From NCBI GenBank assembly GCA_033182465.1, contig CP137320.1, positions 2,976,001 through 3,040,000 on the forward strand: 64,000 nt of DNA, in the 5' to 3' direction. The stretch's first letter is position 1; every line of letters starts with the position of its first letter. The notes below the pieces were generated by a model. It saw nothing but the letters and a program-made list of their open reading frames with translations, was not told the origin of the DNA and made no database searches. The stretch is from Sanghuangporus weigelae (Eukaryota; Basidiomycota; Agaricomycetes; Hymenochaetales; Hymenochaetaceae). Shown here piece by piece: positions 48,277 through 56,350 of this stretch. A program made the position numbers and the translations under genes.

Positions 48277-48619
48277 AAGATATATTCTCTGAGAAAAGGA
48301 AGAAAAATGTTAATTTGTTCATCATAGACCAAGACGATTCGCGATTACTTTCCATTATGATATAAAAATTACTGGAATAGAAAGGGTAAAAATACAGGTT
48401 CTTATGTGATGATACTCATGTTCTCCAAAGGTGTAAGCGGAGTTATTTTCCTGTGTTCATTCAAGTTATAATAGGACGATGACCACAAGGCAAATTTACA
48501 CTGTGTGCCCTACTCACTTCAGGCGAGTTTACGCATCTCAATCCAAGTGCACATAGGACTTACAACTATCTCCTACGGATCTGCTGACTATCGTTCTGAT
48601 AGATTGTTGATACCTTTTC

Positions 48620-49324
48620 TCAGTATTCTGAGAGATATGATATGTATAATATTTCTGCAGATATCCTCATGATCCGTGTCATTGCGCTGTGTTCTCGAGG
48701 GGCGCTAACTATAGCCATCACCAAATTACTCTTCGATGGAATCCGAATTAGGAAAGCTATTAGCAGTCGTGCTTCAAGTACTTCGCGTCCTTGATGCTCG
48801 ACATGATGGTTCATATCACTCTCACCGAAGGCCGTAAGTCAATTTTGCGCTTGATTGACAGAAGTGATTCTGATTGATGTCCAAAGCTACCGCGAGGACG
48901 TTTGCAAAGGGATTCACTATTTGCGGGGAGACAAACAATGCTATTGGCCTTGGGATCATATGGTGGGGAGCTCAGCATCGTAACATCTATTTCGCTGAAT
49001 TTCGGGAAGGTCGATTCCGATGGTTTCTAGCGCCATCTTTTTCTTCTTGGCTGCGTATTCAGTGATCGTGGATTGGAAGGGTTCTACTCTGATCAAAGTA
49101 CTCATCCGGGATCAAATCATCTGTTTCATACTGTGAGTACGATGGATTCTCCGCCGGCGTCAATCTCTAATGATACTCCAAGAGCAATTATCTGCAATTT
49201 TCTCAATGCACTGGAATTCAAACTTGAACTCAGCGTATCTAACGACTTCCTGTCTGCTTTGCTGGATACTCTCAGAAGTTCAGCATTTCTCAGGAAACTG
49301 ATGTCTGCGACGCAATTCTCTTAG
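48620..49324 (+). pseudogene. DUF6533-type 7TM protein, 5'-truncated and broken copy
   Basis: Pieces align in order with the two intact copies downstream: DILMIRVIALCSR, a damaged helix exon, FAKGFTICGETNNAIGLGI, SIPMVSSAIFFFLAAYS with STLIKVLIRDQIICF, and NFLNALEFKLELSVSNDFLS. Lesions are visible. The donor after CTCGAG reads GGGCGC instead of GTGAGA. The helix exon before GAAGGCC is 11 nt shorter than in the intact copies, which shifts frame. The N-terminal exons (MALS... to CKFAMW) are missing. It is the 5'-most member of the tandem array. Confidence 0.7.
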
Positions 49325-50383
49325 CTTCTATCTGAACGGGAATAATGTCGTCCTTTCTCTTAATGTAGTTCTTTTTAAGGTTCGTTGCAATAGTGGAATT
49401 CGCTCTTACTTTCTCTCTGAACTTCGCCCCTTGAACAGGAACATTACACATGATTACAGTTCGTGCGTCGGTGCATGATGGATGGACAGATTAGAAGATG
49501 TGCCTCTCAGAATCCGTATCGTTAAGAGCTATCTGCGCTCGCTCAGGAGAAAAAGATTTCATCTTACGGTTACCAAAATGATTGCCGAGTACTCGGATTT
49601 CCCACGGAGTATCAAAGTTGGTTTTCATCGCATGGAACCTCATTTGTCCCGATTTCATAAACGGCGTTGCTCAAAGACCTCCTCCTATCTATCCACACGC
49701 GAAACACTTCATGCGAATGACTGTGTTCTGTATGCTATGTAAATGGTCGTCCATCCGCAATTCCACCTCAGTATGCGGAAGAATGCAGCGAACCATCAGG
49801 ATCGAAAGATTTACTCCAGGAAGCGCATGTCAAGCCTCGTGTAGTAGCGCCTGCTCTGCTACCTCATTACCTCATGTGATCTGTTACACATTCCGTTCTC
49901 AAGGTCGCTCACGAGCATCGCTGTATTGCTCTTTTGTCGTCGCAAACAAGCGACAGTATTCCTTCCATTCCCGTAGTACGAATGCTATAACCAGATGCAA
50001 AACAGCTTTGGTGACCACACTCTTTCATCATCTTGATCGATCCAAGTTAGAAATGTCATGCGCTATTCTCAACTATGCAACTATCTCTCTGGTGCTTCGA
50101 TGTCCATCTGTCATTACTCTCTTCAAAAGCTTGTACTTTTAATGTCTTCAGTGCATCTCCAAACTGTCAGAAGACCCTAGATGCGTTTCCGAGGAAGTCA
50201 AGGTGCGACTCAGTCATTCGGGAAGTATGATCGGTTCTAATCAAAGCTACAGCCCGGACTTTAATGAACTTATTCAATCCACTTTAAAGCGACCCTGAAC
50301 GCAGATTATGCGTCGTCCCGTCCCTTCTGCATTTCAAGTGTCACTTCCTCTGGACTCGTCCAAGAACCTAGGCACGGATTAAC
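49325..50383. other. Intergenic in the 7TM array
   Basis: About 1 kb. Open frames at 49482-49742 and 49582-50142 show no motif. No supported gene. Confidence 0.35.
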
Positions 50384-51995
50384 ATGGCGCTCTCTCTCGC
50401 CCCTAGTCAAGTCCCTGTATTCGTGCAGGATTTTACTATTTCGCGTTACTTCCAAGCAGCAGCAATAACGTCCCTGACTTATGATGCTCGTGCGTATCCT
50501 TCCATCCGTATTCAATATGAAGGAATCTGCTGACAATATGCAGTCATTACGATGGATAGGGAGGTGAGTACGACTCTTTTAGGTCAAGAAACACAAACAG
50601 TAACCGCGAGTTCATTAGTCTAAGTACTTCTGGGTAAATGCCAGAGCGATCCCTTGATGAATCAAGAGCCTCACTCAGACTTTCTAAAGAATTCGCCCTT
50701 CAGAACCATATCTTTTGTTTACTTTGCGGTTCGTCACCTGAAAGAACTTGTTGCTCCCTGTACCTGACGAACACCAGAATCGCTACTCTGGCCTTTTCGG
50801 AGAAATCACTAGAGTTATTTGTGCGTATTCCGCCCTTCTAAGACTAAAGCATACGACTGACGTTCAAGTTCGGAAAAGATTATTCCTATGACCTGAGTCC
50901 ATCTGTGTACGTCACTAACGTTTCTTAAGTTTCTTTTCCGGCTAATCCATTACATTCAGGTGTAAGTGATGTGCTACCACCTATTCACAGCAATTTGAGC
51001 TATTCTAGGTAAATTTGCGATGTGGACGAGGGTTGTCTCGAGTAAGTGACCTAAATTACGCAATAAACGCAAGTTGACACAAGCAGATTGGTTTACAATC
51101 GTCTTGATTGATTGTAAGCAGATCCCCATTTCTTTTAAATTTTTGATTCACTCACGCGTTGATGACTTAGACATCCTTATGATTCGAGTTACTGCGCTTT
51201 ACTCTCGAGGTGAGAAGTTCGACATCTCAACGATGATTACTCTGAATTTGAAGTAGCAAGAATCTTGACAACGGTCCTCCAAATATTGCTCGCAATAGAA
51301 GTGGTGATAATGCTGTGGCTCTGCATTCACATCACTCTGATCGAAGGCCGTGAGATCTTTATCAATTATTATGTCGATTTATTGCCTAATGATTATATAG
51401 TCACGACTAAGAACATCGCGGTAGGAATGACCGTGTGCGGCGAATCGCACAATGCGCAAGGATTCGGAATCACGTTCTGGTGAGCTACTAACGCATTACC
51501 GATGTCACATATCTTGAGCGGTGTCCCATGAATTCCAATAGGTCTATTCCTATGGTGTACAGCACGATCCTTTTTTTGTTGGCGCTATACAAAGCAATCG
51601 GATTTTGGATGATAAACCGGAGTTTGGAGAGTCTGACGCTTGTCAAAGTCCTCATTCAAGACCAAATAATTTATTTCGTCCTGTGAGCAATTTCATATAT
51701 GCCGCCCTTATTTTGCTTACATAGTGACATGGACAGCGCAATCGCCTGCAATCTTCTCAATGTCATGGAATTCAAACTGAGAGTTTCGAACGGCCTGCTC
51801 TCAGCCTTGCTTGACACCCTCGGAAGTCCTGCCTTCCTTTGCATCTTCGGGAGTCGTATGCTTTTCAATCTAAAGGAAGCGGCAGAGAAAGGGGTCAAAG
51901 GAGACACAACCCTCAAAACAGAGACTCGCATGTCTAGTGTGCATTTCGCTCAGGATGGTCATCGTCTCGTAGAGGAAGAGAGTGGCTTTGATTAG
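50384..51995 (+). CDS. DUF6533-type 7TM protein, copy 2
   Basis: About twelve exons, 311 residues, all in frame. It begins MALSLAPSQVPVFVQDF, then ISRYFQAAAITSLTYDALIT with MDRE as in DUF6533 N-termini. Later helices read FRTISFVYFANRYSGLFGEI, WFTIVLIDYILMIRV, LTTVLQILLAIEVVIMLWLC, SIPMVYSTILFLLALYKAI and IIYFVLDMDSAIACNLLN. The C-terminal tail is polar (KEAAEKGVKGDTTLKTETR). Between DLSPSV and CKFAMWTRV, frame is kept only by a 2-nt exon (GT, 50960-50961) flanked by normal 53- and 47-nt introns. Such proteins are numerous in Agaricomycetes and receptor-like in shape, but their ligand and role are unknown. Confidence 0.8.
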
Positions 51996-53322
51996 TCGTG
52001 CTTCCCGCTGTTCCGGTATCCCTTATTTATTTCCTTTGGGTGAAAGTGTGAATCGAGAGTATCTGTGATCCATAATCCTTTGTAGAGTCGTACTTGTATA
52101 GAAATTATACTATTGGTGATCGAATGATCACGTATATCTTTCCGGAGCGGACATGGGCTCAACAACGCCGAGATAGGGAAATTGATGCCAATACAGTTTG
52201 CCCTCCGCGTTTCAGATAATCGGGGTGCCCTAACAATAGTCTCTCAAAAGGTAACGGTTTCATCTCTCCAGACTTTCTTGTCTACTTAGATGGATGGCGG
52301 ACACATCCGGCGTCTCGATAGAATTTTTCGAAACTGGAACGCGAACAAGTTCTCTCCGAACCTGACGTCTCCCTGAATATGATTTAGAAGCGGTACATGC
52401 TGAACCTTGACCATTTAGTACATCTTGTATCCCTCCCTCATCGAAACGGTCTTTTCTTCGTCATGGTTTCGAAATTACTGCTCCGTACCTTTTCAAGACC
52501 AGATAAACATTCGCATTGAAGCGCAGAAGAACCGTCTCATAGGTAGAGTTACTTTAAAAGACCGTGGTCTATAGGCTCAGTGTTTTCGAGCAGAAGCTGA
52601 GCTCTCTGTTCTTATTTTGCTATCGTATAGGCGCCGGCGGCGCTTTGAAGCAACTAGTCTTCCATTTTGTTTCCTTCTCAGCAGGCTTCGTCTACTTCTC
52701 GCCTCACTTCTCACAGCCAGGAAAACGGTAAGCGGCTATCCATTCATGGTTTCATCTCTTCTGTGACAGGATCTGATGAAAATCTTTTGATATTTAGCTC
52801 ACGTGATTCTAGCTCTGATAAGTTTTCGTCGCGAAGTTTCTACTTCTCTACATCTACAGTCTTTGAGGTCTGAAAGTATCATGCCATCATTTATTCTATA
52901 GTGAGGATCTGTGATTGACGCTGTCCAGAAGCTCTTTAGGTTGCTTGAAGGGAGATCCAAGCATCGTCCTGCGTAGCTCCATCTGCATTCCCGTAGATGA
53001 ACTAATTCCGAGCGTCAAAATGCGAGGCGCTGACTGAATTCTGTCCAGAAGCTCTTTAGGTTGCTTGAAGGGAGATCCAAGCATCGTCCTGCGTAGCTCC
53101 ATCTGCATTCCCGTAGATGAACTAATTCCGAGCGTCAAAATGCGAGGCGCTGACTGAATTCTGAAAGCGGATCGTCTTTGATTTCTGCTACTATCAACCT
53201 TGAAAACTTTCGTGCCCAACTAGTTTAAATTCGACCTGGCGAAGTGACCTTCTCTGTGATCCTACATTCATATCTCCTTCATTTCATCCCCTGAAAGACA
53301 AACATCCTCGCTTCTTTGCACA
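51996..53322. other. Intergenic with a 120-bp perfect tandem repeat
   Basis: About 1.3 kb between array copies 2 and 3. Apart from the repeat at 52921-53160 I see no supported gene. Confidence 0.4.
52921..53160. repeat. Perfect 120-bp direct tandem duplication
   Basis: Two adjacent 120-bp units (52921-53040 and 53041-53160) are identical base for base. The minus strand is open through both units and beyond (52896-53219), with a repeating peptide that includes GSPFKQPKELLD. It is either a very recent duplication or an assembly effect. Confidence 0.95.
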
Positions 53323-54914
53323 ATGGCACTCAGCATTGCCCCTAGTATGGTTCCTGTATTCGTCCAAGACTTTACAATTTCGCGATATTTCCAGGCGGCA
53401 ACTATGGCATCTCTTACTTATGACTCTGGTGCGCTTCCTTCGTCATCATAATTGCTCTGAGAGGTTCTTACGAGGTGCAGCTATCACTATGGATAGAGAG
53501 GTTAATTATGAATTATCTGGAATTTGATAAAGAGACTAACTCTGTTGCATCAGATCACGTACTTCTGGGTAACCTCCATAGCAACGCCTAAAGAAAACCT
53601 GACAAGCTCATCGGACACCATTGCAGAAACTTCCATTTACGTCCATCTCTTTCGTTTATTTTGCAGTACGCCTTTTTCAATTACTTTACAGTTTCTTTGA
53701 CAACTATGTTATAATTTCAACAGAACCGTTATTCGGGTATTTTTGGTGAGATCTCTAGGGTTATTTGTGAGCACGATCTTCTCGAATGTTTCATCTTCCT
53801 TCATCTCATATCGGGCTAGATTACTCCTATCGACTGAGTCCATCTGTGTACGTTGATAAATCCCTCAGTCTATTTTTAGCTGATGCATGAAACTCAGATG
53901 TAAGTCAACGATTTGGACCTTTGTTCAGGGTCAGGGAGCTTGAAATACTGCAGGCAAGTTTGCTATGTGGACTAGGGTCATCTCCGGTGAGTGATAATAT
54001 GTTTCAGCGGGACGACCGCTGAAATTTGCGCAGATTGGTTTACAATTGTCTTGATCGATTGTAACTCTTTATATGCTACTCGCTTAGTCAATACCAGTCT
54101 GAGAGATTGTTCAAACAGACATCCTCATGATCCGTATCCTCGCGTTGTATTCCAGGGGTAAATATATAATTCTAGAGACAGACCGTCGGCTAACTTGAAG
54201 TAGAAAAAGTCTTATCATGGACTCTACAAGTCTTACTTGCGCTAGAGGCGATAGCGATGCTTTGGCTTGTCATTCAGATCACTGTTGTCGAGGGCCGTAC
54301 GTGACCGTTCGCTCACTCTATTGACACACCTTCTGATTATGAATAGTTACGACGAAGACGCTCCCAGGAGGAATCACTGTCTGTGGAGAAACGCACAATG
54401 CTCAGGAACTTGGAATGGCATTTTGGTAAGTCTATTGATCCTGGTATATATCGGTAAAGATATAAACCATCATTTTTTGGCAGGTCGATTCCGATGGTCT
54501 ACAGCGCTATTCTGTTCGCATTGGCGCTGTACAAGGCAATTGAATTCTGGCTGATAAATCGTGGCTTTGAGGGCCTGACTCTGGTTAGGGTCCTAATCGA
54601 GGACCAGGCCATTTATTTCGTGCTGTGAGCAATATCGTATTTCGGTATATTGTTGACTAGTCTCAGACGAGCAACTTTGTAGTGCAATAGTTTGCAATCT
54701 TTTGAACGTTATGGAGTTCAAGCTAAGAGTATCAAATGGCCTCGTCTCGGCTCTACTTGACACTCTCGGGAGTCCAGCATTTCTCTGCATTTTTGGAAGT
54801 CGGATGCTGTTTAACCTGAAAGAAGCAGGAGAGAAGGGAAGCAACGATGGGACGACACTTAGAACGGATACTCGCATGTCCAGCGTGCACTTTGCTTCGT
54901 TCTATCGTGGATGA
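53323..54914 (+). CDS. DUF6533-type 7TM protein, copy 3
   Basis: Same exon plan as copy 2 and in frame throughout, about 300 residues. It begins MALSIAPSMVPVFVQDF. Helices include PFTSISFVYFANRYSGIFGE, WFTIVLID, LSWTLQVLLALEAIAMLWLV, SIPMVYSAILFALALYKAI and NLLNVMEFKLRVSNGLVSAL. The 2-nt exon is AT (53898-53899), with ACTCAG before it and GTAAGT after it and introns of 50 and 54 nt. The tail ends SSVHFASFYRG, shorter than copy 2. The high similarity to copy 2 indicates a recent tandem duplication. Confidence 0.8.
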
Positions 54915-55318
54915 GCAGAAAGTATTTTGGTGAAGATATTTCTTTATGACAATCGCGAAGAGACTTTTTAGCGCGCGGTTCTGGTAGCTATATCTCAGGT
55001 ACATCAGAGCGGTTTGTTTTTGTTTTTATGAAAATTTGGTTACCCGCGCGTGAGAAGAAGGATACAGACAATGATGATGTGCTTCCGAAGCATACCCGAG
55101 CTTGACCGAAGCGGCCGAAATGCCAAGCAAAAGTTGCTCAGGCGTCCCATGTAGCCGAGTTGAGCTTACGATACACCGTAGAGACAGAGACGATATCGAT
55201 GAGCATCCGAGACGAGCAGTCCGGGTACCTAGATCATGATTTGTGTATTTGACAGCGCGAAGTTGAGCAAGCCGCTAGGGAAGCAACTAAATTCAAATCC
55301 GCATCGCCATTACATGTA

Positions 55319-55733
55319 GAGGTCTTTTGCTATCAAACGGTGACGGATTTTCAAACGGTACCCCATATTCAGCCGAGGCAAAACCTTGTTTGTAATCAAG
55401 CGTCTGCGAGCCGAAGGGTTCTGCCACAGAGGTCACATTGCCTAGTTTTGGGAATGCCGATCAACTGAGTAGGAGATGAGAATAATCTGACAAAATTTAT
55501 GCTATTCACATCAAGTATGCATTCTTATACTATAAATTTCTGTGAACCAGAGCTTGAATCAGAAAAAGGATTTTATTTTGACTTGAAGGTTGTGGAGACA
55601 AGAGACTTGCCAATCAGGTCAGAACCGCGTTACGTATCGGCAAGATGTCGCTTAAATCTTCGTCATGATCTCTCACGTTCAAACGGTGGGCCCCAGAATT
55701 TCAAACGGATACCGTTTGATAGCAAAAGACCTC
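55319..55733. mobile_element. MITE-like element with TA flanks (Tc1/mariner type suspected)
   Basis: Terminal inverted repeats of 23 bp (starting GAGGTCTTTTGCTATCAAAC) are perfect at 55319-55341 and 55711-55733. Both outer ends are flanked by TA, the target-site duplication typical of Tc1/mariner elements. The 415-bp body has no transposase and repeats the motif CAAACGGT near each end, so it would be non-autonomous. Confidence 0.65.
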
Positions 55734-56350
55734 TATTCGCGTTTGGCCAACGAGATACGTAACACTCTTGCTGGTGGAGGAAATGGTGTACTATTTTCGA
55801 CACGATCGCGTCGCGAAGAGGAGTGATGGTAACCTGAGTAAGTGAGAACTGTGAGATGAAGGCGCTGTCGGATACCGCACATGACCAGATCACGTGCGTA
55901 AACTTGTCCCAGGCTTGGGGGATATTTTACCATACCAAATTTTCTTCCGCGACTCGTCTGCGGAATCAATTACGAATGTACGGCATCCCTACAGGCGACG
56001 TCCTTTGGTGCCTTTACAATGACACGGAAGGCCGTGAATCAACGCAAAAAATACGCTTGGCGCTGGAAACCTGTGGCTTATCATCCCTCCGAATTGAACG
56101 CATTTGTAAAGAAAAAAGCTATGCAGTTCTGAAAATAGCTCGTATTCTTATCATAGAGCGGCGGACCCTGTCGCGTGCTTCCTGCTCTGCCGATGGGTCC
56201 AATTTTGATGGCCCTACCACGCAGTCTCTCTGAAGCCGATGCGGTTTGTATATAAGAAAGACTCCTAGCTCATGCTTCTCCTGGAGCTTTTCCCTTCATC
56301 TCTTCACGTCTTTCCTCCCACGCACGAGATAGAGTCGTCCACGGTCCATC
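55734..56350. promoter_or_regulatory. Upstream region of the amino acid permease
   Basis: An open frame at 55856-56233 has no motif and is probably chance. The core promoter of the permease lies at the 3' end of this interval. Confidence 0.4.
56249..56256 (+). promoter_or_regulatory. TATA box of the amino acid permease
   Basis: TATATAAG about 95 bp upstream of ATG 56351, with a CT-rich stretch between. Confidence 0.55.

Follow-up and report, generated by a model that had tools for sequence, protein, structure and literature searches.

An exon of only two nucleotides is very probably a real and constitutive part of a subfamily of DUF6533 genes in Sanghuangporus weigelae, and on the evidence of the sequence it would be spliced stepwise, would be older than the expansion of the subfamily, and would have been retained because its loss shifts the reading frame. 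The exon appears to be flanked by spliceosomal introns of phase 2 upstream and phase 1 downstream, and would supply the last base of one codon together with the T that always opens a nearly invariant Cys codon. The element was followed from the window, a stretch of 64,000 nucleotides (contig C3, positions 2976001-3040000), through the rest of a genome of 33.9 Mb in 13 contigs.

Gene models in the window and its close surroundings

Two intact DUF6533 genes, here termed copies 2 and 3, lie in the window (Table 1). A Pfam scan run on these two copies gave PF20151 scores of 50.9 and 45.3 bits, which exceed the curated cut-off of 24.1 bits, and all their introns are GT-AG introns of 45-62 nt. In both genes the phase is 1 on entry to the 28-nt exon upstream of the dinucleotide and again on exit from the 33-nt exon downstream of it, so that two extra bases (modulo three) are required between them; with these borders 28 + 33 = 61 nt is out of frame and 28 + 2 + 33 = 63 nt is in frame. 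The spliced codons read TCT GTG TGT AAA in copy 2 and TCT GTA TGC AAG in copy 3, both of which encode Ser-Val-Cys-Lys. The first-pass annotation had proposed these two exons, GT and AT, and all its coordinates, intron lengths and borders proved exact on recheck. Its further argument, that skipping the exon would leave an unusually long intron, is borne out by the modelled introns (n = 797 in 62 genes), which have a median of 52 nt and a 99th percentile of 76 nt and include three of at least 95 nt, as against 102 or 106 nt for the merged introns.

Table 1. Features of the DUF6533 copies in and next to the window (window positions, unless preceded by the contig)
Feature	Position	Strand	Description
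Copy 1, GT element	48431..48432	+	CCAAAG before, GTAAGC after; placed by alignment to copy 5
Copy 2, DUF6533 gene	50384..51995	+	14 exons, 307 aa, intact; exon lengths 106-20-15-39-43-28-2-33-27-39-93-79-141-259; PF20151 match, E 1.6e-13, residues 22-67
Copy 2, upstream exon	50879..50906	+	28 nt; ends ...CCATCTGT, phase 2 out
Copy 2, intron 6	50907..50959	+	53 nt; GTACGT...ATTCAG, branch-like CTAAT
Copy 2, putative 2-nt exon GT	50960..50961	+	Val codon base 3 and Cys codon base 1
Copy 2, intron 7	50962..51008	+	47 nt; GTAAGT...TTCTAG
Copy 2, downstream exon	51009..51041	+	33 nt; GT first (rest of Cys codon), then KFAMWTRVVS
Copy 3, DUF6533 gene	53323..54914	+	14 exons, 298 aa, intact; exon lengths as in copy 2 for exons 1-13, last exon 232; PF20151 match, E 9.5e-12
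Copy 3, upstream exon	53820..53847	+	28 nt; ends ...CCATCTGT
Copy 3, intron 6	53848..53897	+	50 nt; GTACGT...ACTCAG, branch-like CTGAT
Copy 3, putative 2-nt exon AT	53898..53899	+	Val codon base 3 and Cys codon base 1
Copy 3, intron 7	53900..53953	+	54 nt; GTAAGT...CTGCAG
Copy 3, downstream exon	53954..53986	+	33 nt; GC first (rest of Cys codon), then KFAMWTRVIS
Copy 4	C3:3064015-3065514	-	Modelled span, just beyond the window; putative 2-nt exon GT at C3:3064940-3064941
Copy 5, more divergent	C3:3067941-3069462	-	Just beyond the window; putative 2-nt exon GT at C3:3068889-3068890

When the copy 2 protein was compared with the genome, 138 exon-level matches were obtained, and a Viterbi spliced aligner given the copy 2 protein alone places a 2-nt exon in each of copies 3-5. 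Copy 1 is a truncated, decayed relative of copy 5, with its remnant lying within about 48380-49400. Between copies 2 and 4, dN is 0.014 and dS 0.29 (NG86), a dN/dS of about 0.05; for the five other pairs among copies 2-5 the NG86 dS was saturated and gave no value.

The surroundings of copy 3 hold two further features. Upstream, at window positions 52921-53160, stand two identical 120-nt tandem copies, which reflect either a duplication of very recent date or an artefact of the assembly. Downstream, 55317-55735 holds a pair of 25-nt inverted repeats that match perfectly (TAGAGGTCTTTTGCTATCAAACGGT and the complementary sequence) and lie 369 nt apart; the pair looks like a MITE-type element.

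Conservation across the subfamily

The survey covered 66 loci of this one genome, namely copies 2-5 and 62 paralogs; it is smaller than the full subfamily, 14 further matched places having been left out. The loci were modelled with a purpose-written spliced protein-profile aligner with hand-set splice scores, the gene models likewise being the analysis's own, and both codon columns touched by the 2-nt exon were masked, which was meant to reduce circularity. An AG-NT-GT element is present in all 65 assessable loci, L018 standing outside the count as it could not be aligned. The aligner called it in 62 of them (59 in the masked run, and L062, L066 and L078 in the unmasked run), and three were recognised by eye. 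Two of these three, L091 (TTAG-CT-GTACGT) and L092 (TTAG-TT-GTACGT), had been given a single intron of 108 or 113 nt in the family-profile runs. In the third, L075 (C13:984129-986297), CAG-CT-GTGCGT is intact and the downstream acceptor AG is seemingly mutated. Repetition of the arrangement had been put forward as an argument for function on the strength of two copies, and it now extends to these 65 loci, which comprise copies 2-5, two of them outside the window, and the 61 of 62 diverged paralogs that keep the element; the truncated copy 1 gives more support.

The neighbouring exons follow the pattern 28-2-33 exactly in 55 of the 62 aligner loci and are irregular in seven, and strict splice sites surround the dinucleotide in 55 of 62. 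The proteins themselves are diverged, with a pairwise identity of 31-99.6% and a median of 45% over 63 aligned rows, the locus pairs L038/L061 and L094/L095 being near-identical. Nine of the 66 models contain an in-frame stop; these nine copies are probably decayed, so that in some the element would be kept only passively. Contigs C9, C11 and C13 carry many genes of this DUF6533 subfamily with its finely divided coding sequence, partly in clusters. A domain search of the raw DNA gave 57 PF20151 matches genome-wide, none of which falls in the window or among the 66 loci, because in these genes the domain is divided among exons of 15-43 nt and such a search misses them.

Coding behaviour of the two bases

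The second base of the element is T in 65/65 loci and completes a Cys codon in 62/62 aligner loci, where the dinucleotide is GT in 26, CT in 17, AT in 11 and TT in 8. The first base, a third codon position, matches the end of an upstream exon that lies at least 48 nt away. An upstream exon ending in AG is paired with C or T in 21/21 cases (Ser, never Arg), and one ending in TT with A or G in 8/8 (Leu, never Phe). The codon covariation gives a Fisher p of 2.3e-7, a value to be read with the shared ancestry of the paralogs in mind, which makes them non-independent. A FastTree tree was built, with both columns excluded, for 62 loci, comprising 60 of the aligner set (without L036 and L085) together with L091 and L092; on it the first base changed 15 times and the second base not once. 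Skipping the two bases brings in a stop in 62/62 genes, right after the junction codon in 17 and within about 150 codons in all. In their pattern of covariation and change the two bases behave as coding bases and not as intron bases.

The frequency with which such an element would arise by chance was estimated from dinucleotide-preserving shuffles of the stretch between the flanking exons, 40 per gene, in 62 genes. Under a loose criterion (AG-NN-GT, neither intron being shorter than 41 nt) a mean of 6.5 of 62 shuffled genes (maximum 11) contained the element against 62 real ones, and under a strict one, which adds a pyrimidine before the AG and a good donor, a mean of 0.18 (maximum 3) against 55. 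Those 62 genes were picked for having the element, and the unselected figure is that of the 65 assessable loci. An excess over the shuffles is also seen at other AG-to-GT spacings, above all 0 (29/62) and 6 (48/62), largely because of GT dinucleotides after AG and of the later GT in GTNNGT donors. The excess is weaker for spacings 4 (11 of 62), 7 (15), 8 (9), 9 (18) and 11 (12). AG-N7-GT and AG-N9-GT between the 28-nt and 33-nt exons compare with about 5 in the shuffles, and their excess may reflect shared ancestry of the intron sequence.

Distant relatives with an uninterrupted codon pair

Eight distant loci were read by eye as comparators (L003, L004, L006, L008 and L099-L102), the distant DUF6533 loci L001-L008 having scored 47-158 with the family profile, a poor alignment. 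An uninterrupted codon pair was seen in three of the eight; L006 and L100-L102 gave no reading and L099 is ambiguous. In L003 (...|AGC TGC CGG) and L008 (...|TCT TGT AAA) the Ser and Cys codons are adjacent, with one phase-0 intron before Ser and none within the pair, and in L004 the adjacent codons GGT TGC encode Gly-Cys; these are eye readings, and the aligner put some introns of the three loci elsewhere. From the Cys to the Arg of the LRV motif there are 24 residues in L003 and L008, as there are in copies 2 and 3. The three loci thereby take the role that the intronless CYP621B1 has for the 1-nt exon of Fusarium (PMC12940212). In L099 (C8:446406-447106), a distant DUF6533 gene, CTAAAG-GG-GTACGA stands at about positions 215-353 within an intron at nearly the same place, and could be read either as a 2-nt exon of its own giving Gly-Cys or as part of one intron some 130 nt long.

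Alternative explanations

The absence of a 2-nt exon would be conceivable if one longer intron with other borders were removed. The first-pass annotation had held that no single intron joins the flanking exons in frame, which is correct for the borders it used, and does not extend to others: when GT/GC-AG or AT-AC introns of 30-250 nt that are in frame and stop-free are enumerated, copy 2 has four and copy 3 has 15, none of which yields SVCKFAMW. One such intron, which keeps copies 2, 3 and 4 in frame and free of stops, would start at a GTCCAT donor within the 28-nt exon and end at the usual acceptor, giving YYSYDLS-KFAMW, but its 110-116 nt lie above the 99th percentile of intron length, its donor is without consensus, and PSVC, including the Cys, would be deleted. 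Another, which does so in copies 2-5, would lead from the usual donor to an acceptor within the 33-nt exon, giving YYSYDLSPSV-VVS, but would measure 122-130 nt and delete CKFAMWTR, whose Cys and Trp90 are conserved in 62/63 and 60/63 aligned proteins. Among 57 regular genes, a stop-free GT donor lies in the upstream exon of 25, and in 27 the 33-nt exon holds an acceptor; in 22 of the 57 one intron with acceptable sites would leave most of both exons in place, seven genes on C9 sharing one reading through intron 6, and alternatives retaining a Cys exist in, for example, L037, L067 and L076. Yet no single-intron solution serves the family as a whole, whereas the 2-nt exon is found in every assessable locus, and a longer single intron is very improbable.

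More improbable still is a stwintron or a zero-length recursive splice site, with the dinucleotide removed together with the intron. An AG|GT ratchet site is formally present in the 26 of 62 genes in which the dinucleotide is GT, but the other 36 dinucleotides are AT, CT or TT and unable to act as a donor; omission shifts the frame and brings a stop in all 62, and a discarded base would not covary with the meaning of the codon as the first base does. The element accordingly falls outside the stwintron class, since its removal shifts the frame and 36 of 62 dinucleotides are not GT, and outside the class of zero-nt recursive splice sites, an AG directly before a reused GT occurring in only 26 of 62. 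That the apparent exon merely patches frameshifts in dead copies is hardly conceivable: the stop-bearing models and the truncated copy 1 do point to pseudogenes in the family, but the 14 exons of copies 2 and 3 are intact, the dN/dS of copies 2 and 4 is about 0.05, and 65 separate frameshifts with the same solution, at a median identity of 45%, are not credible.

Splice signals and a possible order of removal

Acceptor and donor factors hardly fit together on an exon of 2 nt. Exon definition is hardly possible at this length, and each of the introns of about 50 nt is therefore most likely recognised by intron definition. That the 2-nt exon is spliced in vivo, and in steps, can be inferred from its sequence context: the two introns would be removed one after the other, the first splicing attaching the two bases to a neighbouring exon and leaving a complete splice site for the second. 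Among the 13 intron slots of the genes, intron 7 combines the best donors (GTRNGT in 71%) with the fewest branch-site matches (CTRAY 19%, YTNAY 52%), and intron 6 has the most CTRAY matches (67%). The strong branch site of intron 6 and the poor one of intron 7 suggest that intron 6 leaves first, which appears somewhat the likelier order. The strength of the intron 7 donor suggests that it offsets the T at the exon end, and the poor branch-site consensus of the same intron could make its splicing inefficient. For the 1-nt exon of APC11 in Arabidopsis, intron definition and recursive splicing have likewise been suggested (PMC4674806), and the 9-nt exon of potato invertase follows the contrary order, with the second intron removed first (as cited in PMC4674806).

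Protein context of the split Cys codon

The Cys residue of the split codon, Cys85, is present in 62 of 63 aligned proteins, and Cys161 in 61 of 63. Cys85 precedes a hydrophobic segment at 95-109 by about ten residues, and Cys161 lies between hydrophobic segments around 127-147 and 177-187; the hydropathy profile did not recover seven helices, and gave no segment between positions 34 and 94. DUF6533 has been described as basidiomycete-specific, and the DUF6533 protein SNB1 (Snowball) of Coprinopsis cinerea has seven predicted helices with the N-terminus outside (PMC10949477). SNB1 and copies 2 and 3 share the DUF6533 domain, and are likened here by description and not by sequence (PMC10949477). 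If the topology of SNB1 applies, Cys85 would lie in the loop before helix 3 and Cys161 in the loop between helices 4 and 5. As a speculation, the two could form a GPCR-like disulfide, of the kind found in many G-protein-coupled receptors. According to the authors of the SNB1 study, this protein does not fit the GPCR classes, and the main text of that paper makes no mention of introns (PMC10949477); the passages found in the DUF6533 literature likewise include none about introns.

Known systems and significance

Sub-codon exons are already known, and what is unusual here is their multiplicity in one genome. The first-pass annotation had called exons this short rare in any eukaryote, which is fair as a general statement but has to be qualified by precedents, among them 1-nt exons in plants (PMC4674806, PMC8831610) and, in fungi too, the 1-nt exon of the Fusarium P450 CYP621A (PMC12940212). 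The latter is the closest parallel, being fungal, constitutive, sub-codon and intron-flanked and having been argued from frame, homologs and an uninterrupted relative; it differs in comprising 1 nt, in occurring in 20 orthologs across Fusarium species and in being covered by 18 SRA reads, where the present exon has 2 nt and recurs at 65 loci of one genome on the evidence of sequence (PMC12940212). Exons of 2-5 bp occur in Arabidopsis, Drosophila and humans (as cited in PMC12940212). Plant APC11 and VPS55 have experimentally verified 1-nt exons, which are similarly sub-codon, with a conserved GTRAGT donor in VPS55, and unlike the present case they belong to plant genes in one or few copies (PMC4674806, PMC8831610). 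The microexon of Trichoderma virens Xlr2 is also fungal, but has 20 nt and is glucose-dependent (PMC11121469), and P450 genes of Phanerochaete have exons down to 6 bp (PMC1184071). Fungal stwintrons likewise place two introns at one site and have them removed in succession, but their internal intron interrupts a splice signal of the external one and no coding base is left between, whereas here two bases would stay. A literature search on 2-nt exons by name, and on microexons in Coprinopsis and mushrooms, returned nothing on 2-nt exons.

Sub-codon exons mark a limit of what the spliceosome is capable of, and the verified cases that were found concern genes in one or few copies. The 65 natural variants described here, with their differing flanking introns, are a ready library for studying the order of intron removal and the signals required. 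They also imply that such genes are misannotated wherever pipelines disallow exons of 2 nt; read mappers of the ordinary kind have difficulty with exons of this sort (PMC8831610). It is conceivable, though unlikely, that a receptor-like basidiomycete subfamily as a whole depends on an obligatory stepwise splice across a 2-nt exon which divides the codon of a structural Cys, and that the unusual intron pair, with its strong donor and poor branch site in intron 7 and its strong branch site in intron 6, would be a built-in control of the amount of intact protein.
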